A stretch of 64,000 bases of DNA, from positions 4,145,521 to 4,209,520 of the forward strand of contig CP036272.1 of NCBI GenBank assembly GCA_007745635.1. The letters are read 5' to 3'. Below are positions 4,901-25,042 of the stretch, one piece after another. Within the stretch, counting starts at the first letter, position 1. Each line of letters opens with the position of its first letter. Made by a program: the position numbers and the translations under genes. The notes beneath the pieces were generated by a model. It ran no database searches, had not been told where the DNA came from, and worked only from the letters and a program-made list of their open reading frames with translations. This DNA comes from Stieleria bergensis. Lineage in GTDB: Bacteria > Planctomycetota > Planctomycetia > Pirellulales > Pirellulaceae.

Positions 4901-5533
4901 ATGAGTGAAGCGACTCAATCCGGCCAAACGAACGAAACGACGCCCCTCGGCGAAGCGATCCTGACCGAGTTCGCGTTTCGACAGGCCAAATTCAAAGGCG
5001 AACAATTGGCCCCGCGGCCGGAGTTCGCGGACTGCGACCCGGAAGACATCGAGCAAGAGTTGCTGATGTATTTGATCCAGAAGGCGGACCAGTTCGATCC
5101 GTCGCGGTCAAAGCTGAACACGTTCATCACTCGCGTGCTCGATTCGGGCGTTCGCGAATTGCTGCGTGCGAAGAAGCGACAAAAGCGCCATCCGATCCAG
5201 GACGACATTCAGTTGCAGTCGTTCGAGCAACCGATCGACACGGTCGATGAAACGTACGCGGATCTGGGCGGCGAGATTTCCGACAGCGATCTGTGCCGGC
5301 GGACGATGGGCATCCCGATGGATTCGATTGAGCAAGTCGATGAACGGGACGCGGTCGAGTTTGCGATGTCGAAGCTGACGCAAGAGCAACGCGATTTTAT
5401 CGTGTTTTTGTCGGATCACTCGTGCAGCGAAACGATGCGTCAATTTGGTCTTTCGCGCCGCAAGTGCAACAAGATGCGTGACGACATCGCGGCTCATTTC
5501 CGTCGCTGCGATGCGACGTTTTTCTGGGATTAG
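4901..5533 (+). CDS. Divergent sigma-70-family RNA polymerase sigma factor
   Basis: A 210-aa protein with the layout of a small sigma factor. Residues about 45-100 resemble region 2 (EDIEQELLMYLIQKADQFD, then SKLNTFITRVLDSGVRELLR, a helix-rich DNA-melting-type segment). The C-terminal 50 residues resemble region 4 (LTQEQRDFIVFLSDHSCSE, then FGLSRRKCNKMRDDI, a helix-turn-helix). The ATG at 4901 follows GGAGA at a good distance; the upstream in-frame ATG at 4817 adds an unlikely leader. Phages use such factors to direct host polymerase to phage promoters. The ten repeated promoter-like leaders at 16-22 kb are obvious candidates for its targets, by inference. Confidence 0.65.
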   Translation: MSEATQSGQTNETTPLGEAILTEFAFRQAKFKGEQLAPRPEFADCDPEDIEQELLMYLIQKADQFDPSRSKLNTFITRVLDSGVRELLRAKKRQKRHPIQDDIQLQSFEQPIDTVDETYADLGGEISDSDLCRRTMGIPMDSIEQVDERDAVEFAMSKLTQEQRDFIVFLSDHSCSETMRQFGLSRRKCNKMRDDIAAHFRRCDATFFWD

Positions 5534-5619: not shown

Positions 5620-5853
5620 GTGAACCCATTGGACATTGAACGCCGCGTCGCGATCTCACTCGCGGTCGGCCGGTACTTGCGATCGGCTGACCGCTTCAAC
5701 GAAGCGTCTCGCGAATTCACCGGAGCGTGCAAATCGCTCCGCAAGCAACTCGGCAACGAACAGCGTTTCGTCGTCCAAGTCGACTGGAAGCACTACCTCG
5801 TGACGTCCGATCGCGACGGCAACTTTGACATCGAACCGATCGCTTCGCTGTGA
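5620..5853 (+). CDS. Small hypothetical protein (77 aa)
   Basis: Starts with GTG at 5620, just 3' of the 13-bp inverted repeat at 5544-5612, which may therefore lie in its leader. The sequence is a helix (ERRVAISLAVGRYLRSADRF) followed by a short beta-rich end (RFVVQVDWKHYLVTSDRDG). No family recognised. Its counterpart at 25129-25326 also follows a copy of the 34-bp repeat, although the proteins are unrelated. Confidence 0.5.
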   Translation: MNPLDIERRVAISLAVGRYLRSADRFNEASREFTGACKSLRKQLGNEQRFVVQVDWKHYLVTSDRDGNFDIEPIASL

Positions 5854-13921: not shown

Positions 13922-15232
13922 ATGCAGGTCGAAATGTGGACGCTTGATCGAATCAAGCCTTACGAAAATAATCCTCGCATCAACGACGACGCGGTCGCCG
14001 ATGTGGTGCAAAGCATCAACGAATTCGGTTTCCGCCAACCGATTGTGGTCGACACCGCCGGCGTCATCATCGTCGGCCACACGCGGTTCAAGGCCGCGAA
14101 GCAACTCGCGCTGGCGGAAGTGCCGGTTCACGTTGCCAAAGACATGGAACCCGAAGCGGTCCGGGCCTACCGGATTGCAGACAATCGGACCGGCGAGAAC
14201 GCGGAGTGGGACTACGATCTGTTGCCGCTGGAAGTCGGAGCGTTGCAAGACTCGGGTTTTGATTGCGAACTGCTCGGTTTCGATTCCGACGAGTTGGCCG
14301 CATTGCTGGAACCCGGCGTCGGCCAGGGTTTGACCGATCCCGACGACGTTCCCGAACCGCCAGACGAAGCGATCACGCAGCGCGGCGACATTTGGATCCT
14401 CGGCGACCACCGTTTGATGTGCGGTGACTCGACCAGCGTTGAAGACCTCGACAAACTCTTGGCCGGCGCGAAGATTCAACTCTGCAACACAGATCCGCCG
14501 TATAATGTGCGGGTTGAGCCCCGCAGCAAGAACGCGATCGCCGCCGGCAACAGTTCCTTCGAGGCTGGCAAGGGCAAGACGAAGGAAGGGCCAAAGAAGA
14601 TGCGGGCCAAGGATCGTCCGCTTGAAAACGACTTCGTGTCCGACGAGGAGTTTGACCGGCTGCTCAAAGCCTGGTTCAGTAACATCACCCGCGTGCTCGA
14701 ACCCGGTCGGTCGTTTTACATTTGGGGCGGGTTCTCAAACATTGCCAACTATCCGCCGGTCCTCGCCGCGGCCGGTTTGTATTTCTCGCAAGCGATCATC
14801 TGGGACAAGCAACACCCAGTGATGACGCGCAAGGATTTCATGGGTGCTCACGAGTGGGCGTTCTACGGTTGGAAGGAAGGTGCCGGCCACAAGTATTTCG
14901 GACCGAACAACGCCACCGACCTTTGGCACGTCAAGAAGATCGCGCCGCAGAAACTCGAACACCTCACCGGCAAGCCGGCCGAACTGGCGGTCTTGGCGAT
15001 GCAGTACTCGTCCCGCCGCGGCGAAAACGTACTCGACCTGTTCGGCGGCAGCGGTTCGACCTTGATCGGAGCCGAACAAACCGGTCGCAAGGCGTTCTTG
15101 ATGGAACTCGATCCGCCGTATTGCGACGTGATTGTCGATCGGTACCAACGCTTCACCGGCAATAAAGCGGTCCTCGAACGCACCGGCGAGTCACCGATCC
15201 CGGTCGGTGCCCGCGAGGAGAACATGCGGTAA
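13922..15232 (+). CDS. ParB-domain DNA methyltransferase
   Basis: A 436-aa fusion. Residues 1-125 are a ParB/Srx-like nuclease domain (IKPYENNPRINDDAVADVV, then GFRQPIVVDTAGVIIVGHTR). The rest is an amino-methyltransferase of the N4-C/N6-A type: DPPY (residues 191-194) is catalytic motif IV, and DLFGGSGST (near 374) is the S-adenosylmethionine-binding motif I. The order IV before I is the beta class. No restriction partner is adjacent, so an orphan phage methylase that shields or marks phage DNA is likely. It is the last + strand gene before the inverted array; its stop lies 3 bp from the convergent gene at 15236. Confidence 0.88.
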   Translation: MQVEMWTLDRIKPYENNPRINDDAVADVVQSINEFGFRQPIVVDTAGVIIVGHTRFKAAKQLALAEVPVHVAKDMEPEAVRAYRIADNRTGENAEWDYDLLPLEVGALQDSGFDCELLGFDSDELAALLEPGVGQGLTDPDDVPEPPDEAITQRGDIWILGDHRLMCGDSTSVEDLDKLLAGAKIQLCNTDPPYNVRVEPRSKNAIAAGNSSFEAGKGKTKEGPKKMRAKDRPLENDFVSDEEFDRLLKAWFSNITRVLEPGRSFYIWGGFSNIANYPPVLAAAGLYFSQAIIWDKQHPVMTRKDFMGAHEWAFYGWKEGAGHKYFGPNNATDLWHVKKIAPQKLEHLTGKPAELAVLAMQYSSRRGENVLDLFGGSGSTLIGAEQTGRKAFLMELDPPYCDVIVDRYQRFTGNKAVLERTGESPIPVGAREENMR

Positions 15233-15235
15233 TGG

Positions 15236-15556
15236 TTAGAGTTCCAAACAGGACCAAGTTGCGTCGTCAAAGACATACAGGTACCGCGCCCCAAGGTTCT
15301 TGGCGTAGTCGACCAGTGCGTCTCGCGTCGGCAACTTGGCCGGCGAATCGCCGTTGTCGTAATACTCCGGATCACCGATCTCGGAATGCAGAAAACGAAT
15401 GTCGCCTCGATCAACCAACGCTTCGACTTGCTCGGCGTTCAAAAAATGCTCTTCGAGCAACCGACCGGCGTGCTCGGGATAGCCGTCGAAGTGCAGGTAG
15501 GTCGCAAGGTAGTCGCCGCTTGGCCGGCGGACTGCGATCGTGGCTCGGGTGGACAT
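15236..15556 (-). CDS. Hypothetical protein (106 aa), last gene of the minus-strand array
   Basis: Starts MSTRATIAVRRPSGDYLATY. Mixed alpha/beta with an acidic middle (EIGDPEYYDNGDSPAK). The opening TRATIAV...YLHFDGYPEHAGRLL strongly resembles small phage and plasmid proteins of unknown function. Third gene of an operon with the two genes to its right (gaps of 12 and 10 bp), all driven presumably by the leader at 16041-16130. It converges on the methyltransferase gene. Confidence 0.7.
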   Translation of the reverse strand: MSTRATIAVRRPSGDYLATYLHFDGYPEHAGRLLEEHFLNAEQVEALVDRGDIRFLHSEIGDPEYYDNGDSPAKLPTRDALVDYAKNLGARYLYVFDDATWSCLEL

Positions 15557-15568
15557 GGTTTCAAATCC

Positions 15569-15790
15569 TTATTGCGTGTCGGCCGCCGGCGGCGAAACCC
15601 GCTCGACGACATCCGGTGGAATGGAAAGCATCAATGACCGGTCGTTGTCCCAATCGACATCGACTTGCGTCCAACCTCGTTGTGGATACACGCCGGCGAC
15701 CGTTCCGGTGGTGCCGGCGGGAATTGGGTCGGGGTCGTCGGTCATCGAAACCAGGCGGACGCGGTCGCCCGCCTTGAGTTTGGTTTGCAT
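15569..15790 (-). CDS. DUF4314 domain protein
   Basis: A 73-aa protein: KAGDRVRLVSMTDDPDPIPA, then GTTGTVAGVYPQRGWTQVDV and DWDNDRSLMLSIPPDVV. This matches DUF4314, a small beta-barrel (KOW/SH3-like) domain common in phages and plasmids. Role unknown. Second gene of the three-gene operon behind leader 16041-16130. Confidence 0.78.
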   Translation of the reverse strand: MQTKLKAGDRVRLVSMTDDPDPIPAGTTGTVAGVYPQRGWTQVDVDWDNDRSLMLSIPPDVVERVSPPAADTQ

Positions 15791-15800
15791 GGTTACGTTC

Positions 15801-16040
15801 TCAGTTGCGAGCGTTGTTGGTTTCGTCGACCAGGGCGGCGACTTCGGAAAGCTGGGCGTTGATCAAGTTCAAAGCCCGGACGTGCGTCCATCGCAACGCC
15901 TTGTTGTCGGGTTTCAACATGCGATCGAGTTGCAATTCGATGTGTTGCAGCAGGTCGCGTGAAATTTGGTGGGCGTTGTCGTACGCCGCGGCCGGTTCGA
16001 TCGGCCGCGGGGCGAGGGTTTGAATGTTGGCGTTCTTCAT
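15801..16040 (-). CDS. Small helical protein of the array (79 aa), paralogue of 20359-20571
   Basis: The ATG at 16040 follows ACGGAGA at the usual distance, although the frame also stays open through the leader. The protein is helical, and RWTHVRALNLINAQLSEVAAL matches AAHVRALTLLENLHQRIED of the array gene at 20359-20571, so the two are probably paralogues. First gene of a three-gene operon. Confidence 0.65.
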   Translation of the reverse strand: MKNANIQTLAPRPIEPAAAYDNAHQISRDLLQHIELQLDRMLKPDNKALRWTHVRALNLINAQLSEVAALVDETNNARN

Positions 16041-16130
16041 GTCGTTTCTCCGTTTGGGAAAGGAATCGTTTCGCGGTTTGCGTGTGACACATGGAGCCAT
16101 GACGTTTCGCCGGCAGCAAGCGAAGTCCGG
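16041..16130 (-). promoter_or_regulatory. Array leader 1 (TTGCTG-N17-CTCCAT, ACGGAGA)
   Basis: On the minus strand: CTTCGC-TTGCTG (16119-16114), 17 bp, CTCCAT (16096-16091), then CCAAACGGAGA just before the ATG at 16040. The box order and spacing are shared with nine other copies, which fits a promoter plus ribosome binding site. No experimental promoter is known to me with this sequence. Confidence 0.6.
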
Positions 16131-16235
16131 CAAACATTCCAAAAGAACTCGAATGTTTTTCAACGCCGGCGAACAACCGCAACAAACGCCGCGTGTCGGC
16201 CGGTTCCGGTGCGCGGGATGGTTTGCCGCACAACG

Positions 16236-16262
16236 AAAAAACGCCCGGCAGCCGCGGGCGTT
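16236..16262 (-). terminator. Intrinsic terminator of array gene 16293-16529
   Basis: Minus-strand hairpin of 8 bp (AACGCCCG/CGGGCGTT, arms 16255-16262 and 16240-16247) followed by six T. It ends the transcript of the 78-aa gene before the next leader. Confidence 0.75.
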
Positions 16263-16292
16263 GGGCGTGTCTCGCGAAGCCGCGTTCTCCGG

Positions 16293-16529
16293 CTAGAAAG
16301 GGATGACCGAATGCGGGTTGTCGCCGGTAATTCGGAATTGGTTACCGGTTGTCATCTCGGCGTACAGCTCGTGGTCGCGTCGCGTGACCCATTTCACATC
16401 GCCGGGTTCGCGGTCGGCGGTTCCCGGTCGCCAGCATTCGTAGCGGCAACCCGGTTCGGGATAAATCTTCTCGCCTTCTGCGAGGTGCGAAAAGCAGCCG
16501 ATGTCGCTGATGTAGAATTTAGTGTCCAT
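16293..16529 (-). CDS. Small array protein (78 aa), paralogue of the 76-aa neighbour
   Basis: Starts MDTKFYISDIGCFSHLAEG; the ATG at 16529 follows AACGGAGACA. The C-terminal half, with VTRRDHELYAEMTTGNQF and RITGDN-H, parallels ITRRGNRILATTTNGREF and AVTGPN-H in the next gene (16783-17013), pointing to a duplicated beta-rich domain. No known family. It has its own leader and its own terminator. Confidence 0.62.
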   Translation of the reverse strand: MDTKFYISDIGCFSHLAEGEKIYPEPGCRYECWRPGTADREPGDVKWVTRRDHELYAEMTTGNQFRITGDNPHSVIPF

Positions 16530-16625
16530 GTTTTGTCTCCGTTGAAAGAAGTTTTTCTGTACGCCCCGTTGGCGTGTGACACATGGAGCCATGACTTTTT
16601 TCAACGCAGCAAGCGAAGGCCGGCG
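16530..16625 (-). promoter_or_regulatory. Array leader 2 (TTGCTG-N18-CTCCAT)
   Basis: TTGCTG at 16612-16607, 18 bp (the only copy not at 17), CTCCAT at 16588-16583, and AACGGAGACA before the ATG at 16529. The upstream flank carries the CGACACGCGGCGTTTGTC motif also seen above leaders 1, 6, 7 and 9. Confidence 0.58.
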
Positions 16626-16733
16626 AACAGTCCGAAGAATGTTGAATGTTTTTCATTGCCGGCCAACGACCACGACAAACGCCGCGTGTCGGCCGACTCC
16701 GGTGCGTGGCATGGTTGGCCGCACAACGAGAGA

Positions 16734-16761
16734 ACGCCCGACCGTGGCCAACGTCGGGCGT
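16734..16761 (-). terminator. Hairpin after array gene 16783-17013
   Basis: A 9-bp stem ACGCCCGAC/GTCGGGCGT (16753-16761 with 16734-16742) just past the stop, followed on the minus strand by TTCTCTC. It is the same kind of element as the other array terminators but with a poor T-run. Confidence 0.55.
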
Positions 16762-16782
16762 GAGTGGCGAAACGTTCGCCGG

Positions 16783-17013
16783 CTAGAAGGAAAGTGGAAC
16801 CAAGACGTGAGCGTTCGGTCCGGTTACCGCGAACTCGCGTCCGTTGGTTGTCGTGGCGAGGATGCGGTTGCCGCGGCGGGTGATCCCGACCACGGTCCCG
16901 CGTTCAAACCGGCCGGCGATCGTCCGCAGCTCGTAACCCATGTCGGCTTCCGGCTTGGCGGTTTCGCCGTCAACCAAATCCTCGATCTCGCGTATGTCAC
17001 CAATCGTTTTCAT
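16783..17013 (-). CDS. Small array protein (76 aa), paralogue of the 78-aa neighbour
   Basis: MKTIGDIREIEDLVDGETAK at the start, then a beta-rich domain with ITRRGNRILATTTNGREF, matching the gene at 16293-16529. It lacks the repeated leader: it begins 15 bp after the HARE-HTH gene and has a strong GGGGAGG site, so it is the second gene of that operon. Confidence 0.62.
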   Translation of the reverse strand: MKTIGDIREIEDLVDGETAKPEADMGYELRTIAGRFERGTVVGITRRGNRILATTTNGREFAVTGPNAHVLVPLSF

Positions 17014-17028
17014 GGCGTCGCCTCCCCT

Positions 17029-17505
17029 TCAAACTCGAACCGTGAACCGGCCGCGTTCGGTTTTGACAAACCGGCTTTCGTCGCCGCGTTTGAGGTCGCG
17101 AAGGATCGCCGAGTACAGCGTCGCGTGCGGAGTTTTGCCGCCGGGGCTTTCCCAGAGGTTTTGTTCCACCATGGCGGAAATCATTTCTTGCGAGTTCATC
17201 GGTTCGCCGGCGGTTTCCAAAACCTGCAAGGCCGCTTTGACGCACGAAAGCTTTTTCTCGCCGCCGGCTGCCGTTTCGGTTTTCGCTTTCTTCTTCAACA
17301 CGCGTTTCGTTTCGCTGGCTGGCGTGGTTGCGCGGGCCGGCCCTTGAAGCCGGGCGGCGGTTTTGATGCGGACCTTTTTGTTGGTCGCCAAGTTGGTCGC
17401 GTCCCAGCCGCCCGACGAATTCTCCGCGTCGATCCGGATCGTGACCTTTTTGTTGGTGACCTTCGCGAAGTACTCACCACCGATTTTTACGTCTGCCTTT
17501 TTCAT
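17029..17505 (-). CDS. HARE-HTH (HB1/ASXL) domain protein
   Basis: A 158-aa protein. Residues about 88-158 (LSCVKAALQVLETAGEPMNS, then MISAMVEQNLWESPG and LYSAILRDLKRG-ES-F) are a HARE-HTH winged helix. This domain occurs in restriction enzymes, RNA polymerase delta and chromatin proteins and is thought to read DNA or modified bases. The N-terminal 40 residues form a small beta domain, joined by a Lys/Ala-rich linker. The ATG at 17505 follows AAACGGAGAGA. In the array it is the only clear DNA-binding protein and could regulate the repeated leaders; that is inference. Confidence 0.75.
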   Translation of the reverse strand: MKKADVKIGGEYFAKVTNKKVTIRIDAENSSGGWDATNLATNKKVRIKTAARLQGPARATTPASETKRVLKKKAKTETAAGGEKKLSCVKAALQVLETAGEPMNSQEMISAMVEQNLWESPGGKTPHATLYSAILRDLKRGDESRFVKTERGRFTVRV

Positions 17506-17574
17506 CTTTGTCTCTCCGTTTGGAATCGTTCGTGGTTGGCTGCCATCGTCAGGCCGCGGAAACCATCCGCGACG

Positions 17575-17603
17575 ACGCCGGCCCTTTGCGGGTGAGCCGG
17601 CGT
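17575..17603 (-). terminator. Hairpin between array genes 17613-17879 and 17029-17505
   Basis: An 8-bp stem ACGCCGGC/GCCGGCGT (17596-17603 with 17575-17582) just past the stop of the 88-aa gene. No T-run follows on the minus strand, so it may stall rather than end transcription into the HARE-HTH gene. Confidence 0.4.
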
Positions 17604-17612
17604 TTCGGCTTT

Positions 17613-17879
17613 TCAAACCCAACGCATGATCGGGGGCACCCGTCGGCGGACTGGCCGGCGAAACATGTCGTACCAGCGGTCAAACGCTTCGCTGCAATCC
17701 GACCGTTTGATGCCGATCGAGTCGTACGTGACGTGTCGGTTCGGGTCACCGTGTTCGGCGTATTTCTCCTCGGTGATCAATTCCCATTCGCGGCCGTGGA
17801 AGGTGACGAAGTAGCCCTCGTCGCGTCCGTTGACCCAGACGGTGCCGGCGTAGCTTTCAACTTCAAAAGAAAAGTCCAT
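17613..17879 (-). CDS. Small array protein (88 aa)
   Basis: Starts MDFSFEVESYAGTVWVNGRD; aromatic, beta-rich N-terminus, then a helical acidic-to-basic end. No family recognised. It stands directly behind array leader 3 and presumably heads the operon with the HARE-HTH gene. Confidence 0.6.
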   Translation of the reverse strand: MDFSFEVESYAGTVWVNGRDEGYFVTFHGREWELITEEKYAEHGDPNRHVTYDSIGIKRSDCSEAFDRWYDMFRRPVRRRVPPIMRWV

Positions 17880-17975
17880 GGTTTCGTTCTCCGGTGCGGG
17901 GGTTGGTTATTTTCCGCTGCGTTGCGGTGACACACATGAGCCATGGTTTTTCAAACAGCTCAAGCGAAGTCCGAC
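17880..17975 (-). promoter_or_regulatory. Array leader 3 (TTGAGC-N17-CTCATG)
   Basis: TTGAGC at 17963-17958, 17 bp, CTCATG at 17940-17935, then CGGAGAACGAAACC before the ATG at 17879. The downstream half (17880-17925) is the most diverged of the copies, while the two boxes and spacing are intact. Confidence 0.6.
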
Positions 17976-18082
17976 AGGTTTCTGGAATGTTTCTCGATGT
18001 ATTGCTTGGCCGGCGACGTTGCCGCGTGTGGCCGGCACTTGCGCGTGGGCATGGTTTGCCGAACATGCCGGCAAGCGGGCGA

Positions 18083-18107
18083 CACCGGCGGGCCGTGGCC
18101 GCCGGTG
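18083..18107 (-). terminator. Hairpin after array gene 18130-18384
   Basis: A 9-bp G/C-rich stem (CACCGGCGG at 18083-18091 with CCGCCGGTG at 18099-18107) lies 23 bp past the stop. No T-run is visible, so termination is uncertain. Confidence 0.4.
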
Positions 18108-18129
18108 CCGCGTCCGTGCGGCCGGCGGT

Positions 18130-18384
18130 CTAAACCACCCCGCCCAGGTTGCTTTGGCGAAGCAGGTCGTACATTTGGGCGAAGATGTAGTGTTCGTCCA
18201 AAAGCGGGCCGGCCTTCGCCCCCAGGTCGGCGTCGGCCATTTCAAGGGCGTCCGCGAGCGGTTTGAGGTTGTCCGCGATCCGGTAGAAGTCTTCGCGGAT
18301 ACGTTGGTACGCGTCCGGGTCCAGCTTTTGCATCTCGGTGCGAAGGTTGGCGATCGCGGTCTTTTGGGTTTCGTTCAAAGCCAT
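18130..18384 (-). CDS. Small helical array protein (84 aa)
   Basis: MALNETQKTAIANLRTEMQK followed by continuous helix (ADNLKPLADALEMADADLG). It is acidic and has no Cys. No family recognised. It has its own leader and a hairpin behind it. Confidence 0.6.
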   Translation of the reverse strand: MALNETQKTAIANLRTEMQKLDPDAYQRIREDFYRIADNLKPLADALEMADADLGAKAGPLLDEHYIFAQMYDLLRQSNLGGVV

Positions 18385-18480
18385 GGTTTGGTCTCTCTCG
18401 GAAAGGGTTTTGAAAAAGCGTTTTGCCGTTCGGCGTTAACACACATGAGCCATGACTTTGAAAACACCTCAAGCGAGTTC
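18385..18480 (-). promoter_or_regulatory. Array leader 4 (TTGAGG-N17-CTCATG)
   Basis: TTGAGG at 18472-18467, 17 bp, CTCATG at 18449-18444, then a GAGAGAGACC site before the ATG at 18384. In this copy the short reading frame starting at ATGGCTCATG meets a stop after five codons, which argues against a conserved leader peptide. Confidence 0.6.
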
Positions 18481-18548
18481 GGGCAGCTTTTCGCAGCCTT
18501 TTTCCATGTTTCTGGAAAGCGGCGATAACTCGCGACACACGGGCGAAT

Positions 18549-18770
18549 TCAGTCTTTGAAATTCTTTTGGAACTTCGCCAACAACCCGTCGACTTCGTCG
18601 TGCAGGTCGTCCAATTCACCGAATGTTTCGGTCAACCCGCGTCGCGAAACCGCGTCGGCCAGCGGTATGTTGGCGACCGCGTCGCGTAGTTGTTCGATCA
18701 AAAGCAACCCCGACGTTTGGGCGTAGAGAACGTCGGCGGTCGAAGGTCGATTTTGGGTGGCGGTTGCCAT
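18549..18770 (-). CDS. Small helical array protein (73 aa)
   Basis: MATATQNRPSTADVLYAQTS, then two helices ending DDLHDEVDGLLAKFQKNF. The ATG at 18770 follows AAACGGAGACA; the in-frame extension through the leader is not used, because most other copies run out of frame. The start MATATQNR resembles MRTATQIN of the next gene. No family recognised. Confidence 0.58.
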   Translation of the reverse strand: MATATQNRPSTADVLYAQTSGLLLIEQLRDAVANIPLADAVSRRGLTETFGELDDLHDEVDGLLAKFQKNFKD

Positions 18771-18860
18771 GGGTGTGTCTCCGTTTGGAAGGGTTGGAAA
18801 GAACCGTTTCGGTGACACACATGAGCTATGCGTTTGCGAACGCATCAAGCGGAATCTGCC
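18771..18860 (-). promoter_or_regulatory. Array leader 5 (TTGATG-N17-CTCATG)
   Basis: TTGATG at 18848-18843, 17 bp, CTCATG at 18825-18820, AAACGGAGACACACCC before the ATG at 18770. The 3' 50 bp are almost identical to leader 6. Confidence 0.6.
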
Positions 18861-18925
18861 GGCGGTCGGCAATCATTCAAAAAGTTTTTCAAATGACCGC
18901 GACCGCCGGCGTTCGCCGCGGTCGG

Positions 18926-19204
18926 CTATCGGCCAATGTCGTCGTGAAGCGTCGCGTTCAACTCCATCAGCCCGTCGTAGAACCGTTGCAGCGCCGGGTA
19001 GACGTGCTGGCCGTCTTCGGGGGCGTAGATGCCTTCGGGGTCAAAGTTGTCGACGTAGTCGGTCAACTCCGAAAGCATTTCGAGCGTTGCCGCCTTCAAG
19101 CAGCAATCCGCCGCTTGGCGTTGCCGCGCCGCGTAGCGTCTTTGCAAAACTTCGAGGCGGTTGGGGCGAGGGCGGCGGCCGTTGATTTGGGTTGCGGTTC
19201 GCAT
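18926..19204 (-). CDS. Small array protein (92 aa)
   Basis: MRTATQINGRRPRPNRLEVL, then a long helical region (AADCCLKAATLEMLSELTDY) and an acidic end. No family recognised. It has its own leader (19205-19300) and ends close to leader 5, with an imperfect G/C hairpin between. Confidence 0.58.
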   Translation of the reverse strand: MRTATQINGRRPRPNRLEVLQRRYAARQRQAADCCLKAATLEMLSELTDYVDNFDPEGIYAPEDGQHVYPALQRFYDGLMELNATLHDDIGR

Positions 19205-19300
19205 GGGTGTGTCTCCGTTTGGGAAAGGAATGAAAAACCGTTTCGGTGACACACATGAGCCATGGGTTTCCAAACAGCTCAAGCGAAGTTCGGCAGCAAT
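19205..19300 (-). promoter_or_regulatory. Array leader 6 (TTGAGC-N17-CTCATG)
   Basis: TTGAGC at 19282-19277, 17 bp, CTCATG at 19259-19254, AAACGGAGACACACCC before the ATG at 19204. Upstream, from 19283 to about 19325, it is nearly identical to leader 7, including GCCGAACTTCGC and GCGAATTGCTGCCG. Confidence 0.65.
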
Positions 19301-19395
19301 TCGCAGGGTTTTTGAATGTTTTCAGATGTCGCGAACGTGCCCGATAAACGCCGCGTGTCGCGTCGTCAAATCTCACCGGCAAACAATGCCCGAAC

Positions 19396-19432
19396 AAGAA
19401 AACGCCGCGGCGTTGGGGCAACGTCGCGGCGT
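19396..19432 (-). terminator. Intrinsic terminator of array gene 19451-20104
   Basis: Minus-strand hairpin with 13-nt arms (19420-19432 and 19402-19414, one mismatch) followed by TTTTCTTG. Near-identical to the terminator at 20296-20331. Confidence 0.75.
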
Positions 19433-19450
19433 GTTAGGGATGCCGGCGTG

Positions 19451-20104
19451 CTATCGAAGATGCCGGTCAAATTGTTTCGCCGCTTTCCAAATCGCGTGGT
19501 GCAATTCGTCGGCCGCGAGTTTGCAGATCGCTTCGGTTTCGAGGTCGCCCGGTTCGATGTCTTCCAAGTCACCAACGTCGGACGTCAGTTGCCCCAAGAT
19601 GTGAAGCGTTGCGAACACGGTTTCGCCAAGCGATTTGTATTGGGGCGGGCGTTCGCTGGGTTGTCCGTTTGTATTGGTCGCCGGCGTCGTGATTGCTCGC
19701 GACGTTGCGACCGTAGTGCGAGCGGCTGGCGTCGTCGCTGCGGTTCGTTGCCGTTGCGGTTCGACGGTTGCTGGCGTCGTGGCGGGCGTTGCAACCGTGG
19801 CCGGTTGGGCGGGCGTTTCGTCTTCCGATCCGTCGGGCATGATGACCGGCAGCGAACTTTGGCCCATAACCGCGATCGCGCTTTGCACGCGGTTGTATTC
19901 GGCCATCAACAAGTCGCGTTCTTCGCGGTCAAAGCGGTGTGCGGCGTCTTCAAGATATTCGGACAAGTAGTACAGGTTGTCCCAAAGGTCGTCGAACGCC
20001 GATCGAATATTGCGGGCTTCGCTCGGTGCCCGTCGATCGAGGTGGTTGAAGATTCGGCGGATGGTGACGTCGTTTGGGTTGGTGGTTGGGGCTGCGTTGG
20101 ACAT
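19451..20104 (-). CDS. Array protein with Thr/Pro/Ala linker (217 aa)
   Basis: Two helical domains joined by a long Ala/Thr/Pro linker. The first includes ARNIRSAFDDLWDNLYYLSE and EERDLLMAEYNRVQ. The linker (residues about 105-160, PATVATPATTPATVEPQ-like) is followed by LGETVFATLHILGQLTSDV and an acidic tail. No family recognised. The ATG at 20104 follows CAACGGAGACAAAC. Longest array gene after the amidoligase. Confidence 0.62.
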   Translation of the reverse strand: MSNAAPTTNPNDVTIRRIFNHLDRRAPSEARNIRSAFDDLWDNLYYLSEYLEDAAHRFDREERDLLMAEYNRVQSAIAVMGQSSLPVIMPDGSEDETPAQPATVATPATTPATVEPQRQRTAATTPAARTTVATSRAITTPATNTNGQPSERPPQYKSLGETVFATLHILGQLTSDVGDLEDIEPGDLETEAICKLAADELHHAIWKAAKQFDRHLR

Positions 20105-20195
20105 GTTTGTCTCCGTTGAGAAAGGGTTTGAAAACCGTCTTGCGGTGACACACATGAGCCATGGGTTTCTAAAGAGCTCAAGCGAAGTTCGGCAG
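20105..20195 (-). promoter_or_regulatory. Array leader 7 (TTGAGC-N17-CTCATG)
   Basis: TTGAGC at 20181-20176, 17 bp, CTCATG at 20158-20153, CAACGGAGACAAAC before the ATG at 20104. The CGACGCCACACGCGGCGTTT motif lies further upstream near 20250. Confidence 0.65.
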
Positions 20196-20295
20196 CAATT
20201 CGCAGGGTTTTTGAATGTTTTGCGATGCCGCCGACGCGGCCGATAAACGCCGCGTGTGGCGTCGTCAAAACTCGCCGGCGAACCATGCGGAAACG

Positions 20296-20331
20296 GAAAA
20301 ACGCCGCGGCGTTGGGCGAACGTCGCGGCGT
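20296..20331 (-). terminator. Intrinsic terminator of array gene 20359-20571
   Basis: Minus-strand hairpin with 13-nt arms (20319-20331 and 20301-20313, one mismatch) followed by TTTTT. The best terminator of the array. Confidence 0.78.
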
Positions 20332-20358
20332 GTGGCGGAGCGGCGAACTCGCCGGCGG

Positions 20359-20571
20359 TCAATCGTTTTCGCCGCCCTCCATCAACTCCTCGAGGCGAGC
20401 ACAAAGATGCCGAAGCGAGCCGACGTCGTCCCATCCGATCGCCGGCCCGTCGTCCGATGGTGCCGGCGTGTCTTCGATGCGTTGGTGCAAGTTTTCGAGA
20501 AGCGTCAAAGCCCGAACGTGGGCGGCGGTGTATTCGGCTTCGATGCGTTGGTGGTTGGTGGCGCTGGCCAT
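20359..20571 (-). CDS. Small helical array protein (70 aa), paralogue of 15801-16040
   Basis: MASATNHQRIEAEYTAAHVR, then ALTLLENLHQRIED and an acidic end. Shares the HVRAL-LL helix with the gene at 15801-16040. It has a ribosome binding site (ACACGGAGAACC) but no upper leader boxes, so it is the second gene behind the 53-aa gene. Confidence 0.6.
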   Translation of the reverse strand: MASATNHQRIEAEYTAAHVRALTLLENLHQRIEDTPAPSDDGPAIGWDDVGSLRHLCARLEELMEGGEND

Positions 20572-20610
20572 GGTTGGTTCTCCGTGTTGGAAGGGAAGGT
20601 TTGGTTTCGT

Positions 20611-20772
20611 TCAGTCTGTGGCGATTGGCGTTTCGAGCGTGGCGACCTCGATTCGTGTTCCGTCGGCCAGCGGTATGTAGAAGCCGCCGAAGGTTGGTCG
20701 AGCGGTATCGAAGACCTCAACGCCGTTAATTCGGTCGCCGGGTTTGATCTCGTGGGCTCTGCGTTGCGTCAT
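20611..20772 (-). CDS. Very small array protein (53 aa)
   Basis: MTQRRAHEIKPGDRINGVEV, then FYIPLADGTRIEVA: a small all-beta domain like a KOW/SH3 fold, comparable in size with the DUF4314 gene but not clearly the same family. The ATG at 20772 follows AAACGGAGACAACG. First gene behind leader 8. Confidence 0.5.
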   Translation of the reverse strand: MTQRRAHEIKPGDRINGVEVFDTARPTFGGFYIPLADGTRIEVATLETPIATD

Positions 20773-20860
20773 CGCGTTGTCTCCGTTTGCGGGAATGAAA
20801 AACCGTCGTGCGTTGACACACATGAGCCATGCGGTTTTGATCCCAGCAAGCGAAGTTCGG
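20773..20860 (-). promoter_or_regulatory. Array leader 8 (TTGCTG-N17-CTCATG)
   Basis: TTGCTG at 20849-20844, 17 bp, CTCATG at 20826-20821, AAACGGAGACAACG before the ATG at 20772. Drives a two-gene unit (53-aa and 70-aa proteins). Confidence 0.6.
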
Positions 20861-20904
20861 AAAACATTCGAGATGTTTTCCGAACTTCTTTTCGCCGGCC
20901 GCGG

Positions 20905-21180
20905 CTAGCAATCGCGGCAGGTCTCCCACGCCCGTTTGCTGCCGTAGCAGATCTGGCCGCCTTCGACGATGTAGACCATCGCGTCGTCGGCGACGTCTTG
21001 GTCGTCGAAGAATTCGCTGGCGTCTTCTTCGCTCGCTTCGTTCATCTCCGCGCCGCTGGTCAGGCCGGCGATGCGGTTTTCAAAGGGCCAGTTTTGCTGC
21101 GTCATCAACCGCACTTCGCAGTCGTCGCCGTGCGTTTCGCGGTACTCTTCCAAAAGCGTCATCAGTTCGGAAACCGTCAT
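20905..21180 (-). CDS. Acidic array protein (91 aa)
   Basis: MTVSELMTLLEEYRETHGDD, then CEVRLMTQQNWPFENRI and a strongly acidic middle (EASEEDASEFFDDQD) before VYIVEGGQICYG. The opening helix plus strand resembles small phage proteins that contain a D-C-EV-L pattern, family not named. ATG at 21180 after AAACGGAGAGACAAAC. Confidence 0.62.
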   Translation of the reverse strand: MTVSELMTLLEEYRETHGDDCEVRLMTQQNWPFENRIAGLTSGAEMNEASEEDASEFFDDQDVADDAMVYIVEGGQICYGSKRAWETCRDC

Positions 21181-21270
21181 GTTTGTCTCTCCGTTTGGGT
21201 GAATGAAAAACCGTCTTGCGATGACACACATGAGCCATGCATTTCGAGACGCAGCAAGCCGCTCCCGGCA
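21181..21270 (-). promoter_or_regulatory. Array leader 9 (TTGCTG-N17-CTCATG)
   Basis: TTGCTG at 21257-21252, 17 bp, CTCATG at 21234-21229, AAACGGAGAGACAAAC before the ATG at 21180. About 90 bp further upstream lies the minus-strand GCATAGGTAAC motif (21376-21364). Confidence 0.62.
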
Positions 21271-21363
21271 GCAATTTGCAGGGTTTTTCCATGTTTTGAG
21301 ATGTCGCCGACGGGGCCGACAAACGCCGCGTGTCGGGCCGGCCGAAACAGTCGGCCCCTACCT

Positions 21364-21376
21364 GTTACCTATGCCG
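21364..21376 (-). repeat. Third, partial copy of the GCATAGGTAAC element
   Basis: The minus strand reads CGGCATAGGTAAC, identical over 13 bases to the core of the 34-bp repeat at 5534-5567 and 25063-25096, and is also preceded by AAA. It lies between the amidoligase terminator and leader 9, so all three copies sit upstream of a gene and point the same way as it. Confidence 0.5.
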
Positions 21377-21414
21377 TTTCGCCGACAGGTTGCCCGCCTT
21401 CGGCCGACAAACCG

Positions 21415-21443
21415 AAGAAACGCCGCGGGGCAAACCGCGGCGT
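21415..21443 (-). terminator. Intrinsic terminator of the amidoligase gene
   Basis: Minus-strand hairpin ACGCCGCGG/CCGCGGCGT (9 bp, arms 21435-21443 and 21420-21428) followed by TTTCTT, 26 bp past the stop. Confidence 0.7.
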
Positions 21444-21468
21444 TGGTGATGCGGCAAGCCGCCGGCCG

Positions 21469-22329
21469 TTAAACCGCCCGGTCGTACTTGCGAGCCATTT
21501 CGAGAAGCTTCTTTTTGACCGGTTTCCATTCACAGGTTTGGTCGCCGGCGGTCAGTTCGCCGAACCGTTTGTTGCGAAGGTCGCCCTTGTACCAACCCTT
21601 CGTCCAACCGAGCCGGTAGAAGAGCCGGTTGAGTTCCGTTTCGCCTTCGCCGGCACCCGGTCGGTCCCAGCAAGATTTGGTGCCGGGCTTTTTGGCGTAG
21701 TCCCAACCGCTGCACCGTTTGCTATTCAAGGCGAGTTCTACCAAGCCGAGTACGAGTTGCAGGTAGCCGGCGATTTTGTCTTTGTTGAGGCTGCCGGCGA
21801 AGGCCCGAATCTCGATGCGGTTTTTGCCGCGGGCAAGGTGGGTCAGGTTGAGCAAGTGGTAGCGATCCGATTCGCATTGGCGTTTCGCGGCGTCTTTGTT
21901 GCCGTAGTCTTTGATCCGCTTCGTCCAACGGTTTTGTTCGCGGCGTCGCGTGCCGGTAGAAGCGTAGATGGCTCGTTCGTGGTTGCCGATCAGCGAGATG
22001 AGTCGCGAAAGGGCCGCGGCGTCGTTATCAAACCCAACAGTGACGTGGATTCCCGTGCTGAAATTTACTTTCCCGCCGCGGGCCGTGATCGCGTCGACAG
22101 CGGTCAAGACGCTTTGCAGCCCTTCGTAGCCGCGAAGGACCGGTGAAACAAATTCGCATCCTTTGCGGTTCGCGGCGAGCGTCTGGATGCTCGAATCCCG
22201 TTCGGCTTTCCAACCCGCCGGCAGCCAGGCGACCGGCAATCCGTTGTGGTATCCGCCGATCGGCGTGGTGTCGGTGGCGGGCATGGTGGTTTCGAGTTCG
22301 ATGCCGAAAGCGATGTCGTTGGCGTTCAT
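21469..22329 (-). CDS. Predicted amidoligase (Amidoligase_2, glutamine-synthetase-like fold)
   Basis: A 286-aa protein with the order of motifs typical of the COOH-NH2 amidoligase family: IAFGIELETTM at the start (metal-binding Glu pair), GWKAERDSSIQ, GCEFVSPVLRGYEGL, GKVNFSTGIHVTVGF (the conserved H-x-x-x-G) and, later, KNRIEIRAFAGSLNKDKI. Family members are predicted to use ATP to join a carboxyl and an amine, modifying peptides or cell-wall fragments. The ATG at 22329 follows TCGGAGAGACAAAG. It is the largest and only enzyme-like gene in the array, first in transcription order, with its own leader and terminator. Substrate unknown; one of the small array proteins or a host target is possible. 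Confidence 0.78.
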   Translation of the reverse strand: MNANDIAFGIELETTMPATDTTPIGGYHNGLPVAWLPAGWKAERDSSIQTLAANRKGCEFVSPVLRGYEGLQSVLTAVDAITARGGKVNFSTGIHVTVGFDNDAAALSRLISLIGNHERAIYASTGTRRREQNRWTKRIKDYGNKDAAKRQCESDRYHLLNLTHLARGKNRIEIRAFAGSLNKDKIAGYLQLVLGLVELALNSKRCSGWDYAKKPGTKSCWDRPGAGEGETELNRLFYRLGWTKGWYKGDLRNKRFGELTAGDQTCEWKPVKKKLLEMARKYDRAV

Positions 22330-22412
22330 CTTTGTCTCTCCGAAAGGCGTGTGAATTCGTTTGTTGAATGCACATGAAGCCATGCGTTTTGAGACACCTC
22401 AAGCGAAGCTCG
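22330..22412 (-). promoter_or_regulatory. Array leader 10 (TTGAGG-N17-CTTCAT)
   Basis: TTGAGG at 22402-22397, 17 bp, CTTCAT at 22379-22374, then TCGGAGAGACAAAG before the ATG at 22329. The most diverged of the ten copies around the lower box, and the first of the array. Confidence 0.55.
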
Positions 22413-22578
22413 GCAGTAATGTTTCAGTAATTCGCAGCTTTCTTTTGATCCCCATATGCGGCCGGTGTTGGCCCAACGTGGTTGGCCGAAACCTGCGGCC
22501 GACCATGCCAAACATGCAACTTCTCGCGACCGTTGCCAACGTGTGCGGCGTGTCGCGATTCCTCCCAATGAGCCCGTC

Positions 22579-22785
22579 ATGGAAGACAAACCGAAGTCCG
22601 CAAACCCAAATCGGTTGACGCCGGAAGATCTCGCGACGTTGCTATCGAACCGCCGAAAGAAACGCGTCGAACTCGAACACATCCAGGCCGACATCGAAGC
22701 CGGCGCACCGACGAATGCCGACGGCACCCTCAGCGTCGTCGCGTACGCCGCTTGGCTCTTGCAGGAGAAACACCGTGGCGATTGA
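22579..22785 (+). CDS. Small hypothetical protein before the terminase (68 aa)
   Basis: MEDKPKSANPNRLTPEDLAT, then basic helix SNRRKKRVELEHIQADIEAG and AAWLLQEKHRGD. It overlaps the terminase large subunit start by 11 bp. Position fits a small terminase component or a coupling peptide, but it is much shorter than usual small terminases and shows no helix-turn-helix. Unrecognised. Confidence 0.55.
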   Translation: MEDKPKSANPNRLTPEDLATLLSNRRKKRVELEHIQADIEAGAPTNADGTLSVVAYAAWLLQEKHRGD

Positions 22786-25042
22786 TCCCTTGAAAATGCG
22801 GCCGAGCGAATGCTGCCGGACGCTCAATAGCACGCCTTTGGGAACGGTGCTGACGGATCGGCAGCTGTATCGCTACCGAACCGAAGCCGGTGTGTTGATC
22901 GGCGATGGCACGCATGTCGATCTTCTTCGGTTCACCGCTTGGCTAATCGACAAGCGTCACGCTCCGAAACCCCCAGCCGACGCCGATCCTTATGCGAAGG
23001 TCAAAGAGTCGGCCCGTGCCCGAAACGCCGCGGTCGCTCTGGCCGGCCGCGACATTGGCGATCTACCAGTCGTCGAAGATCCGCAGCGCAAAGCCAGGGC
23101 TGCCGGCAGTTTTCAATTCTTTTGTGAAGCGTATTTCAAACTGACGTTTCATCTTTCGTGGTCACCGGACCATTTGAAAGTGATGCGAAAGATCGAAGAG
23201 GCGGTCGTTCGCGGCGGCTTGTTCTCGCTCGCGATGGCACGCGGAAGCGGCAAAAGCTCTCTGGCCGAGGTCGCCTGCATTTGGGCAGTGCTCAATGGCT
23301 ATCGCGATTTCGTCTGTTTGATCGGAAGCGATGAAGGCCACGCCTGCGACATGCTCGATTCGATCAAGACGGAACTCGACGCGAACGAAAAACTGCTGGC
23401 CGACTACCCGGAGGTCTGCTTTCCTATTCAAGCGTTGGACGGAATCTCGAACCGAGCGAACGGCCAACTTTATAAAGGGAAGCGAACGCAGATCGGATGG
23501 ACGGCCAAAGAGGTCGTTTTGCCATCCATTGCCGGCAGCAAAGCCAGCGGTGCCATCATCAAGGTTGCCGGTCTGACGGGCCGCATCCGCGGAATGAAGT
23601 TCAAGCGGCCGGATGGCAAAACTGTTCGGCCTTCGTTGGTTGTGCTTGACGACCCGCAAACCGACGAGTCTGCTCGTTCGCTATCGCAATGTGCGAACCG
23701 CGAAGCAATTCTCGCCGGTGCGGTGCTGGGACTCGCCGGCCCTGGTAAAAAGATCTCCGGCATCATGCCATGCACGGTAATTCGCCCCGGCGACATGGCC
23801 GATAGCATTCTGGATCGCGACAAACATCCCGAATGGAATGGCGAACGCACTCGAATGGTCGATTCGTTCCCGACCAACGAAACGTTGTGGGAACGCTACG
23901 CCGAGATTCGCAGCGAGGGATTCCGTGCGGGCGATGGCGGCGCGGCCGGCACCGAGTTCTACCGTCGGAACCAAGACGAGATGGATGCCGGCGCGGCTGT
24001 CTCGTGGAAGGAGCGGTTCAACGAAGACGAACTGTCGGCAATTCAACATGCGATGAATCTGAAGTTGCAAGACGAGGCCGCATTCTTCGCCGAATACCAA
24101 AACGATCCGCTGCCGACCGAAACCGTCGACACCGATCAGTTAAACGCTGACCAGGTCGCCGAGAAAGTCAACAACATGCCGCGGCGAACCATCCCGATTG
24201 CCGGCAACCATCTGACCGCGTTCATTGACGTCCAAGGAAAGCTTCTGTTCTACGTCGTTGCCGCGTGGGAGGACGATTTCACTGGCTACGTCGTCGACTA
24301 TGGAACGTATCCCGATCAACAACGAACGCACTTCACGCTGCGTGATGCTCGCCATACGCTTGCCACCGCCAGTGAAGGCACGGGACTCGAAGGCAGCATC
24401 TACGCCGGCCTTGATGCGTTGACGCAGGATTTGCTCGGCCGCGAGTGGCAGCGAGACGACGGCGCAGCGATGAAGATTGGGCGTTGTCTGATCGACGCGA
24501 ACTGGGGCCACTCAACCAACGTCGTTTACCAATTTTGCCGGCAAAGCCCGCACGCGTCGATCTTGCTTCCGTCGCACGGCCGCTTCGTCGGGGCGTCATC
24601 GAATCCGTTCAGCGAATACAAACGCCGGCCGGGCGATCGCGTCGGCTTGAATTGGCGAGTGCCGTCGATCAATGGCAAACGAGCGATCCGTCACGTGATC
24701 TACGACACGAATTGGTGGAAGTCCTTCACGCACGCGAGGCTCGCCGTTGCGATGGGTGATCGCGGTTGCCTTTCAATCTTCGGTGACCGCGCCGAGCAAC
24801 ATCGCATGTTCGCCGAACAAGTCACGGCCGAGTACTTCATCAAAACCGAGGGTCGCGGCCGAACCGTGGACGAATGGAAAGCCCGACCAGAACAGCCTGA
24901 CAACCATTGGCTCGATTGCCTCGTTGGATGTGCCGTCGGTGCGTCGATGCAGGGAGCGTTGTTGTTTGGAACCGACATCGAACGTGCGCCGTCGCGGAAG
25001 CGAGTCAGCTTCAAAGAACTTCAGCAACAAAGGCAGCGATAA
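22775..25042 (+). CDS. terL: Phage terminase, large subunit
   Basis: A 755-aa DNA-packaging motor. The ATPase domain has Walker A ARGSGKSS (about residue 155) and a Walker B strand LVVLDDPQTDESA. The C-terminal half should hold the RNase-H-like nuclease (FIDVQGKLLFYVVAAWEDD supplies a first Asp, and CLIDANWGHST a second). The GTG at 22775 follows GCAGGAG at ideal spacing and is preferred over the upstream ATG-frame start at 22715. Longer than most TerL proteins by about 150 residues, mainly at the N-terminus. It begins the structural arm of the prophage. Confidence 0.88.
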   Translation: MAIDPLKMRPSECCRTLNSTPLGTVLTDRQLYRYRTEAGVLIGDGTHVDLLRFTAWLIDKRHAPKPPADADPYAKVKESARARNAAVALAGRDIGDLPVVEDPQRKARAAGSFQFFCEAYFKLTFHLSWSPDHLKVMRKIEEAVVRGGLFSLAMARGSGKSSLAEVACIWAVLNGYRDFVCLIGSDEGHACDMLDSIKTELDANEKLLADYPEVCFPIQALDGISNRANGQLYKGKRTQIGWTAKEVVLPSIAGSKASGAIIKVAGLTGRIRGMKFKRPDGKTVRPSLVVLDDPQTDESARSLSQCANREAILAGAVLGLAGPGKKISGIMPCTVIRPGDMADSILDRDKHPEWNGERTRMVDSFPTNETLWERYAEIRSEGFRAGDGGAAGTEFYRRNQDEMDAGAAVSWKERFNEDELSAIQHAMNLKLQDEAAFFAEYQNDPLPTETVDTDQLNADQVAEKVNNMPRRTIPIAGNHLTAFIDVQGKLLFYVVAAWEDDFTGYVVDYGTYPDQQRTHFTLRDARHTLATASEGTGLEGSIYAGLDALTQDLLGREWQRDDGAAMKIGRCLIDANWGHSTNVVYQFCRQSPHASILLPSHGRFVGASSNPFSEYKRRPGDRVGLNWRVPSINGKRAIRHVIYDTNWWKSFTHARLAVAMGDRGCLSIFGDRAEQHRMFAEQVTAEYFIKTEGRGRTVDEWKARPEQPDNHWLDCLVGCAVGASMQGALLFGTDIERAPSRKRVSFKELQQQRQR

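Follow-up and report, generated by a model that had tools for sequence, protein, structure and literature searches.

Why does a tailed prophage carry, between two of its plus-strand genes, a block of small genes that read the other way, most of them behind nearly the same leader? The locus that raises this question lies in the planctomycete Stieleria bergensis, in a stretch of 64,000 nucleotides (the window; contig CP036272.1, positions 4,145,521 to 4,209,520) that is part of one 7.1-Mb chromosome. Plus-strand genes at about 0.3–49.8 kb of the window make up the prophage, and inside it, between a ParB-methylase gene and the terminase gene, gene calling finds 15 minus-strand genes of 53–286 amino acids (aa) at positions 15236–22329, which we refer to as the array. 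Ten of these genes are preceded by leaders that share a short sequence at a nearly constant spacing. On the sequence evidence that follows, we think it probable that the ten leaders are copies of one promoter, specific to a phage lineage, that drives an inverted array of gene cassettes. The original prediction for this stretch, of about 15 minus-strand genes in a plus-strand prophage and ten common leaders with a 17-bp spacer in nine copies and an 18-bp spacer in one, agrees with the gene calls and with our alignment.

The common leader

All ten aligned leaders carry CTTG, then a spacer of 15 bases (16 in one case), and then CATGGCTCATGTG or a close variant of it; CTTG plus CATGGCTCATGTG is the conserved part of the leaders. 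Measured from CTTG to CATGG, nine leaders have a spacing of 15 and the tenth has 16, equal to 17 and 18 bp between hexamers, and the core ends 41–57 nt before the start codon. Three of the ten leaders have an extra base within the block. A CTCATG-like box and a ribosome site had been predicted for every leader; CTCATG is exact in seven, two of the remaining three reading CTCCATG and one CTTCATG, and CGGAGA precedes the start codon in nine of ten. A scan with the 18-base block CATGGCTCATGTGTGTCA (at most three mismatches), which misses the three leaders with the extra base, finds seven sites in the window, all of them in the array, against 0.09 expected from shuffles. The shared sequence that had been proposed at first, GCCGAACTTCGC, is exact in two of the ten leaders only; with up to three mismatches it matches 156 window sites against 128.6 expected (none of 100 shuffles has as many), a weak signature that we dropped in favor of CTTG and CATGGCTCATGTG. 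The leader cores are as follows.

22371..22403, minus strand: leader 1 core, variant CTTG-N15-CATGGCTTCATGTG
21227..21258, minus strand: leader 2 core, CTTG-N15-CATGGCTCATGTG
20819..20850, minus strand: leader 3 core, canonical
20151..20182, minus strand: leader 4 core, canonical
19252..19283, minus strand: leader 5 core, canonical
18818..18849, minus strand: leader 6 core, block CATAGCTCATGTG
18442..18473, minus strand: leader 7 core, canonical
17933..17964, minus strand: leader 8 core, canonical
16580..16613, minus strand: leader 9 core, N16 and CATGGCTCCATGTG
16088..16120, minus strand: leader 10 core, N15 and CATGGCTCCATGTG

Just upstream of leader 3 there is also a perfect 16-nt inverted repeat (20852–20888), and similar repeats are visible by eye before some leaders elsewhere, for example in stretches L014 and L017.

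Distribution of the motif

A search of the S. bergensis chromosome with the 19 fixed bases of the motif, allowing up to three mismatches, returns 12 sites (11 exact, one with a single mismatch), all inside two prophages, and the reversed-pattern control returns none. The second prophage, at 6.59 Mb, is related to the first and has a homologous array in the same place, likewise inverted with respect to the phage genes. The motif recurs in the arrays of related phages: it is present in 46 of 199 genomes of the family (control 0) and, with a spacer of 15–16, in 7 of 392 genomes of a phylum-wide sample (control matches 0). In 40 of the 47 motif-bearing stretches from named genomes, the same locus also carries homologues of the array or of the phage genes on either side of it; in the other seven (three Photorhabdus, two Bacteroidetes, L137 and L143) neither is found nearby. 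The Photorhabdus stretches (L103, L113, L138) have one exact match each; its spacer is 17 bases long, no array gene lies in its neighborhood, and these matches are probably due to chance and shared by descent. Viral contigs supply 87 stretches with the 16-mer, many of them as arrays, among which at least three (L025, L035, L083) lack CTTG at the proper spacing and look unrelated by eye.

For closer comparison we used 27 phages, namely 25 virus records (11 of them used in part) and the two prophages of this chromosome; all phage counts per gene below are out of these 27, the window included. Every one of their 133 sites lies inside the array, with none elsewhere in 1.18 Mb and none on the strand of the phage genes. 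Genes were called in 24 of the 27 arrays (G207, G209 and G211 were left out), and in these 24, which span 4.3–9.0 kb with 2–10 sites each, 144 of 148 sites stand directly before a start codon.

Geometry of the leader across phages

The spacer is N15 in 290 of 294 distinct sites retrieved by a search that permitted 14–17. The search seed fixed CTTG and the letters of the block, so that those letters are uninformative; the spacer was left free, and the flanks are informative. At the -35 place, 17 bp from the block, TTGA is read in 71% of sites and TTGC in 26%, CTTG having belonged to the seed. In 98 sites that are less than 70% alike, A-rich positions recur at about -38, -28, -17 and -6 before CTTG, a period of 10.5 bp for which none of 1000 column permutations is as strong, and AGGA or GGAG follows downstream in 85 of the 98 against a shuffled mean of 31.7. 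Leaders of the amidoligase gene, sampled through the protein and thus independently of the motif, score at least 15 of 17 in 46 of 75 cases and 12–13 in a further 11, the maximum in one shuffle of each being 11. By eye, variants and distant relatives keep CTTG or CTGG (some GTTG) at the same spacing and mostly retain GGCT, one to three bases and then ATGTG; those that are most distant carry other blocks. Promoter-like leaders of fixed geometry with one shared recognition sequence, as originally predicted, are thus supported by the sequence evidence.

Might the block instead be an operator for a dimeric regulator, or part of an RNA leader, and no promoter element at all? CATG-GCT-CATG does form a short dyad, which the variant CACTGCTCAGTG keeps, but inspection by eye shows the left arm altered and the right one kept in most variants, and we rejected a palindromic operator because the arms vary independently. 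Small hairpins follow the block in 54 of 98 sites against 41.5 (sd 4.1) and 44.9 (sd 3.8) in two sets of shuffles, an excess too modest for the uniform 5' hairpin that we had considered; the hairpins are non-uniform, and the fixed CTTG spacing and the phased A-tracts lie outside any plausible RNA leader. We therefore regard a role as operator or RNA leader as quite improbable.

Leaders and genes as cassettes

Genes present in fewer than half of the phages, here called accessory, usually have a leader of their own. Among accessory families found in at least two phages this is true of 35 of 39 genes, against 109 of 233 core genes (Fisher p 2e-7); when singletons are added, several of which resemble mobile-element genes or are doubtful calls, it is true of 35 of 48 (p 0.001). 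With the core masked, 127 of 143 leaders have their nearest relative in another phage before a gene of the same family; for 15 it stands in another phage before a different family, and for one it lies within the same phage. These two results together indicate that a leader travels and is inherited with its gene, and that cassettes come and go, in keeping with the prediction that they are added or lost; they are gained and lost together with the leader.

Free variation of the leaders around conserved genes, which would have spoken against the original prediction, is not what the sequences show. For genes of 35–75% identity, the masked leaders share 48% identity (497 pairs) against 44–46% for unrelated leaders, so that the core appears to be held as the flanks drift, the leaders having been chosen by a minimum core match that biases toward this result; diverged blocks are found in distant relatives. 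Some cassettes are tandem paralogues, for example those at 16783 and 16293. Leader and gene would thus be inherited together, which would allow cassettes to be added, duplicated and lost, accessory genes arriving with their leader and core genes often standing behind another gene.

One might also take the repeat for a recombination or cassette-insertion site whose position before genes is a by-product, since cassettes differ between phages at these positions. However, the leaders follow their gene across phages and are not homogenized within a phage (the one case in 143 above), and the A-tracts, the spacing and the ribosome sites would be left unexplained, so that this reading, already disfavored, seems to us extremely improbable.

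We also considered 68 loci around distantly related methylase genes (L287–L354), many of them fragments or parts of other phages. A homologue of the HARE-HTH protein, which one array gene encodes, lies on the opposite strand in 19 of the 68. Eighteen of these 19 were inspected by eye; the block at this place is mostly short, with near-canonical sites (one or two), or else it is diverged, and in L302 none could be seen. Judging from these sequences, the array looks like the expansion of a short HARE-HTH-containing unit by addition and duplication of cassettes.

A putative phage promoter and its reader

If the leaders are promoters of the kind we propose, each would start transcription of one small gene or short operon, opposite to the phage strand. 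Phased A-tracts, resembling an UP element and possibly curving the DNA, would lead into a TTGA-type -35 and, across the 17-bp spacing, into the conserved GGCT-CATGTG block in the place of TATAAT. Transcription would begin about 7 nt past CTCATG, and a Shine-Dalgarno site would follow, with the start codon 41–57 nt beyond the core. The factor that reads the motif is most likely specified by the phage, because no host site within three mismatches lies outside the prophages, an absence that speaks against a host regulon.

Alternatively, the leaders could serve as very strong promoters, in the manner of T4 early ones, for the host's own RNA polymerase and one of its sigma factors. TTGA at -35, TGn at the extended -10 place and the UP-like A-tracts would suit it, and the motif tracks the phage backbone (Mantel 0.56 between motif divergence and TerL, 29 phages, the blocks of distant phages in all motif distances having been picked by eye), not sigma or HARE-HTH, as would be expected under constraint by host machinery. 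On the other side, the important A and T of TATAAT are missing from CTCATG, and outside the prophages the chromosome has no site within three mismatches; on balance we hold a host sigma to be improbable as the reader. A sigma-32-like reading of CTTGA...CCCAT, compared by eye with the consensus, was rejected for its misfit in spacing.

Among the products of the prophage, two genes call for attention here.

4901..5533, plus strand: sigma-family protein gene, 210 aa, candidate reader (PF04542 1.9e-6; phrog_1740 1.3e-11)
5620..5853, plus strand: 77-aa gene beside the sigma gene (23/27 phages)

The former matches PF04542 (region 2) above the cut-off and, as a single protein, has no Pfam region 4 match; a profile of the family matches PDB chains of ECF SigE region 2 and FliA/SigA region 4 (E 7e-5 to 1e-4), so that it belongs to the sigma family by region 2 in Pfam and by region 4 through the family profile alone. 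Profile searches find a homologue in 26 of the 27 phages, the contig of the 27th beginning at the 77-aa gene, which the sigma gene adjoins wherever the 77-aa gene is found; six records outside the building of the profile match in all six cases. PF04542 by itself matches 22 of 31 virus records, 17 above the cut-off, and a single-protein query of the viral contigs confirmed none of five stretches, probably because the family is too divergent.

This protein could be the specificity factor that redirects host RNA polymerase to the array promoters, as its family, its presence in nearly all of the phages and the lack of near-motif host sites outside the prophages would allow. The expected co-divergence with the motif is absent, however, and for this reason we rejected sigma as a proven reader. 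Sigma identity among the array phages falls to 17% (median 28%, 325 pairs) as the core motif stays, with almost no correlation to motif divergence; the putative -35 recognition helix differs by eye between sigma types; the sigma of L301 is 39% identical to that of the window (local alignment) and yet goes with a different block, and that of the second prophage is 27–29% identical and yet goes with the canonical block. Either all the sigma types share one specificity or another factor reads the motif, and we rate the sigma protein as a somewhat unlikely reader. HARE-HTH was rejected for the same role: it is correlated with the motif (Mantel 0.37 over 41 phages and 0.49 over 29), but the correlation disappears once TerL is taken into account (0.02 and 0.04), although it persists with methylase (0.23, p 0.03, over 41 phages) or sigma (0.48, over 29 phages) as the covariate.

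The sigma gene is among the more diverse genes compared and appears to be exchanged between phages nearly independently of the backbone, the rank correlation of sigma with methylase identity being 0.11 (p 0.047). A third locus of the host chromosome (L274, 6640672–6644004, at 6.64 Mb) has a sigma gene, the 77-aa gene and part of RusA with no array, and is probably a prophage remnant.

The promoter specific to this phage lineage remains the reading that we favor, and several results weigh against it. A sigma-70 promoter scan of 15200–22500 finds none, the -10 place reading CTCATG and not TATAAT. Most records come from one phage lineage, so that the co-occurrence of the parts is in part common descent. 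In the protein-based sample, 18 of the 75 amidoligase leaders score 10–11 and are inseparable by score from shuffled sequence. Motif divergence is not significantly correlated with sigma (Mantel 0.11, p 0.16; given TerL -0.07, 29 phages), sigma homologues occur as well in relatives with diverged blocks (L291, L301, L306, L308), and the presence of sigma was counted in array phages and their relatives only. Hairpin-T terminators had been predicted for several units, and four terminator-like hairpins do follow array genes on the minus strand with T runs at the expected places; the total on both strands, 19, is near chance (shuffled mean 15.8, sd 3.8). Conservation, geometry, confinement to the array and linkage to genes can be read from the genomes themselves, as can the presence of the ribozyme family described below, and it is from these that we infer promoter activity, start site and self-cleavage.

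A hammerhead ribozyme upstream of HARE-HTH

The HARE-HTH gene is the sole array gene present in 27 of 27 phages, and it has no leader of its own in any of the 24 arrays examined. What stands before it is a ribozyme, on which the original prediction was silent and which is new in this analysis.

17534..17610, minus strand: type II hammerhead ribozyme (RF02276; 50 bits, gathering 37, full model)

Its place is after the stop of gene 17613–17879 and ahead of the ribosome site of the HARE-HTH gene. Type II hammerheads have a core of CUGANGA, GAAA and a cleavable NUH, and the Rfam alignment here contains CUGACGA, CGAAAC and GUC, so that both the covariance model, above its gathering score, and the core elements place it in that class. 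Of the 31 virus records with the motif, 28 contain the hammerhead (27 above the gathering score; not in G209, G214 and G216), as do both prophages and 7 of 16 distant methylase relatives, against none of 14 control genomes. By its core pattern it is recognized upstream of HARE-HTH in 19 of the 27 phages, and further cases come from the covariance model. Self-cleavage would cut the HARE-HTH mRNA off the upstream transcript.

Hammerheads, with type II among those of bacteria, are known to flank genes in prophages, where it has been proposed that they divide long transcripts into mRNAs the length of a gene (PMC3088659). The present case is similar in that a ribozyme flanks a gene in a prophage, and differs in that one ribozyme is kept before the HARE-HTH gene across much of a planctomycete phage lineage. 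Our literature search turned up no report of an association between a hammerhead and HARE-HTH, and the accessible part of PMC3088659 does not mention one. Such a conserved hammerhead makes the purpose of phage ribozymes in mRNA leaders testable.

The prediction that each unit is switched on separately is not supported, there being ten leaders for 15 genes and a hammerhead in place of a leader before HARE-HTH. Nor did a host-takeover or anti-defense role find support, ten of the 15 genes compared with PADLOC giving one weak match (E 0.0089). Of the overall interpretation, then, the promoter-like leaders, the shared sequence and the mobile cassettes are supported, and separate switching and the takeover or anti-defense roles are not. 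We tentatively suggest that a lineage-specific class of promoter whose -10 block departs from TATAAT, a phage-specified factor, a single inverted modular array and a HARE-HTH message freed by a hammerhead may together form a switch and an RNA cutter by which small genes can be plugged in without rewiring.

Relation to known systems

Phages are known to carry morons, extra genes with their own promoter and terminator. The cassettes resemble them as extra genes inside a phage genome with a putative promoter and terminator of their own. They differ in that they stand in an ordered cluster behind a single type of putative promoter, and in that many of them belong to the core genes of the lineage. 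The early promoters of T4 are many and strong, of the UP/-35/TGn/-10 class with an extended consensus (PMC2988021). The array leaders share with them a consensus reaching beyond the usual elements as well as putative -35, TGn and UP elements, but T4 early promoters keep a good -10 for host sigma-70, whereas the array leaders read CTCATG and stand in a single inverted cluster only.

The start-associated sequence (SAS) of cluster K mycobacteriophages, GGGATAGGAGCCC, typically has its place 3–7 bp away from the start codon, with the ribosome site inside it (PMC3203893), and extended start-associated sequences (ESAS) are 17-bp imperfect inverted repeats next to it (PMC3203893; PMC12699233). As far as the accessible parts of both papers describe it, the SAS is like the array core in being one conserved asymmetric sequence of near-constant orientation, before many non-structural genes, with no exact copy in the host. 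The array core is of another sequence and ends 41–57 nt before the start codon, so that it is not a SAS, and the parallel is one of layout, as the original prediction had it. No ESAS-type inverted repeat is common to the ten leaders, leader 3 alone having the 16-nt repeat upstream. The array leaders would work most like T4 early promoters and have a layout like the SAS, and they fail a defining feature of each. Planctomycete phages seem to be little described, our literature search having turned up no paper on one. Should the leaders prove to be promoters, the accessory genes of the entire lineage would be tagged by a single short sequence, through which a pattern search could pick up new cassettes, and the leaders could provide a phage-dependent expression tool for planctomycetes.

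Genes of the array and its surroundings

The plus-strand genes of the prophage include those for a repressor, the sigma factor, Sak4, SSB, RusA, a helicase, a primase, the ParB-methylase, terminase, portal, head protease and tape measure, so that the hallmarks of a tailed phage (terminase, portal, head and tape-measure genes) are all present in the window. No PF00589 tyrosine integrase matches in the prophage (1–49800), other recombinase classes and attachment repeats not having been searched, and no tRNA was found in the window. The array genes, the hairpins and the flanking genes are listed here.

21469..22329, minus strand: amidoligase-like gene, 286 aa, leader 1 (PF12224 1.2e-17; 25/27 phages)
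20905..21180, minus strand: 91-aa gene, leader 2, core (26/27 phages)
20611..20772, minus strand: 53-aa gene, leader 3, accessory (5/27 phages)
20359..20571, minus strand: 70-aa gene without its own leader (14/27 phages)
19451..20104, minus strand: 217-aa gene, leader 4, accessory, clusters with 18130–18384 (3/27 phages)
18926..19204, minus strand: 92-aa gene, leader 5, accessory (3/27 phages)
18549..18770, minus strand: 73-aa gene, leader 6, accessory by close homology, clusters with 15801 and 20359 (5/27 phages)
18130..18384, minus strand: 84-aa gene, leader 7, core (25/27 phages)
17613..17879, minus strand: 88-aa gene, leader 8, accessory (2/27 phages)
17029..17505, minus strand: HARE-HTH gene, 158 aa, without leader, hammerhead upstream (PF05066 5.7e-15; 27/27 phages)
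16783..17013, minus strand: 76-aa gene, core, without leader (25/27 phages)
16293..16529, minus strand: 78-aa paralogue of 16783–17013, leader 9 (96% in G217; 29–41% matches elsewhere)
15801..16040, minus strand: 79-aa gene, leader 10 (21/27 phages)
15569..15790, minus strand: DUF4314 gene, 73 aa, without leader (PF14192 1.7e-10; 25/27 phages)
15236..15556, minus strand: phrog_1987 gene, 106 aa, without leader (3.3e-23; 25/27 phages)
21419..21444, minus strand: terminator-like hairpin after the amidoligase gene
20300..20313, minus strand: terminator-like hairpin
19401..19414, minus strand: terminator-like hairpin
16240..16262, minus strand: terminator-like hairpin
13922..15232, plus strand: ParB_N and DNA methylase gene, conserved array flank (27/27 phages)
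22579..22785, plus strand: 68-aa gene, divergent from leader 1 (27/27 phages)
22775..25042, plus strand: terminase large subunit, conserved array flank (PF20454 4.9e-26; phrog_38)

The gene calls also retain one weak plus-strand open reading frame inside the array (16024–16296). The array genes had been described as orphans, which is true in part; three of the 15 pass Pfam cut-offs (HARE-HTH, DUF4314, Amidoligase_2), one more matches phrog_1987, and nine array genes (the paralogue at 16293 excluded) have a homologue in 14 or more of the 27 phages. At the DNA level the array region (9 kb) has no match in the annotated phage collection, and the amidoligase and terminase proteins have distant matches there, 24–33% identical among the matches listed. 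In the second prophage (L100) the amidoligase gene is interrupted by three consecutive tyrosine recombinase genes (6592047–6594476), which have the look of what we take to be a recombinase-in-trio element.

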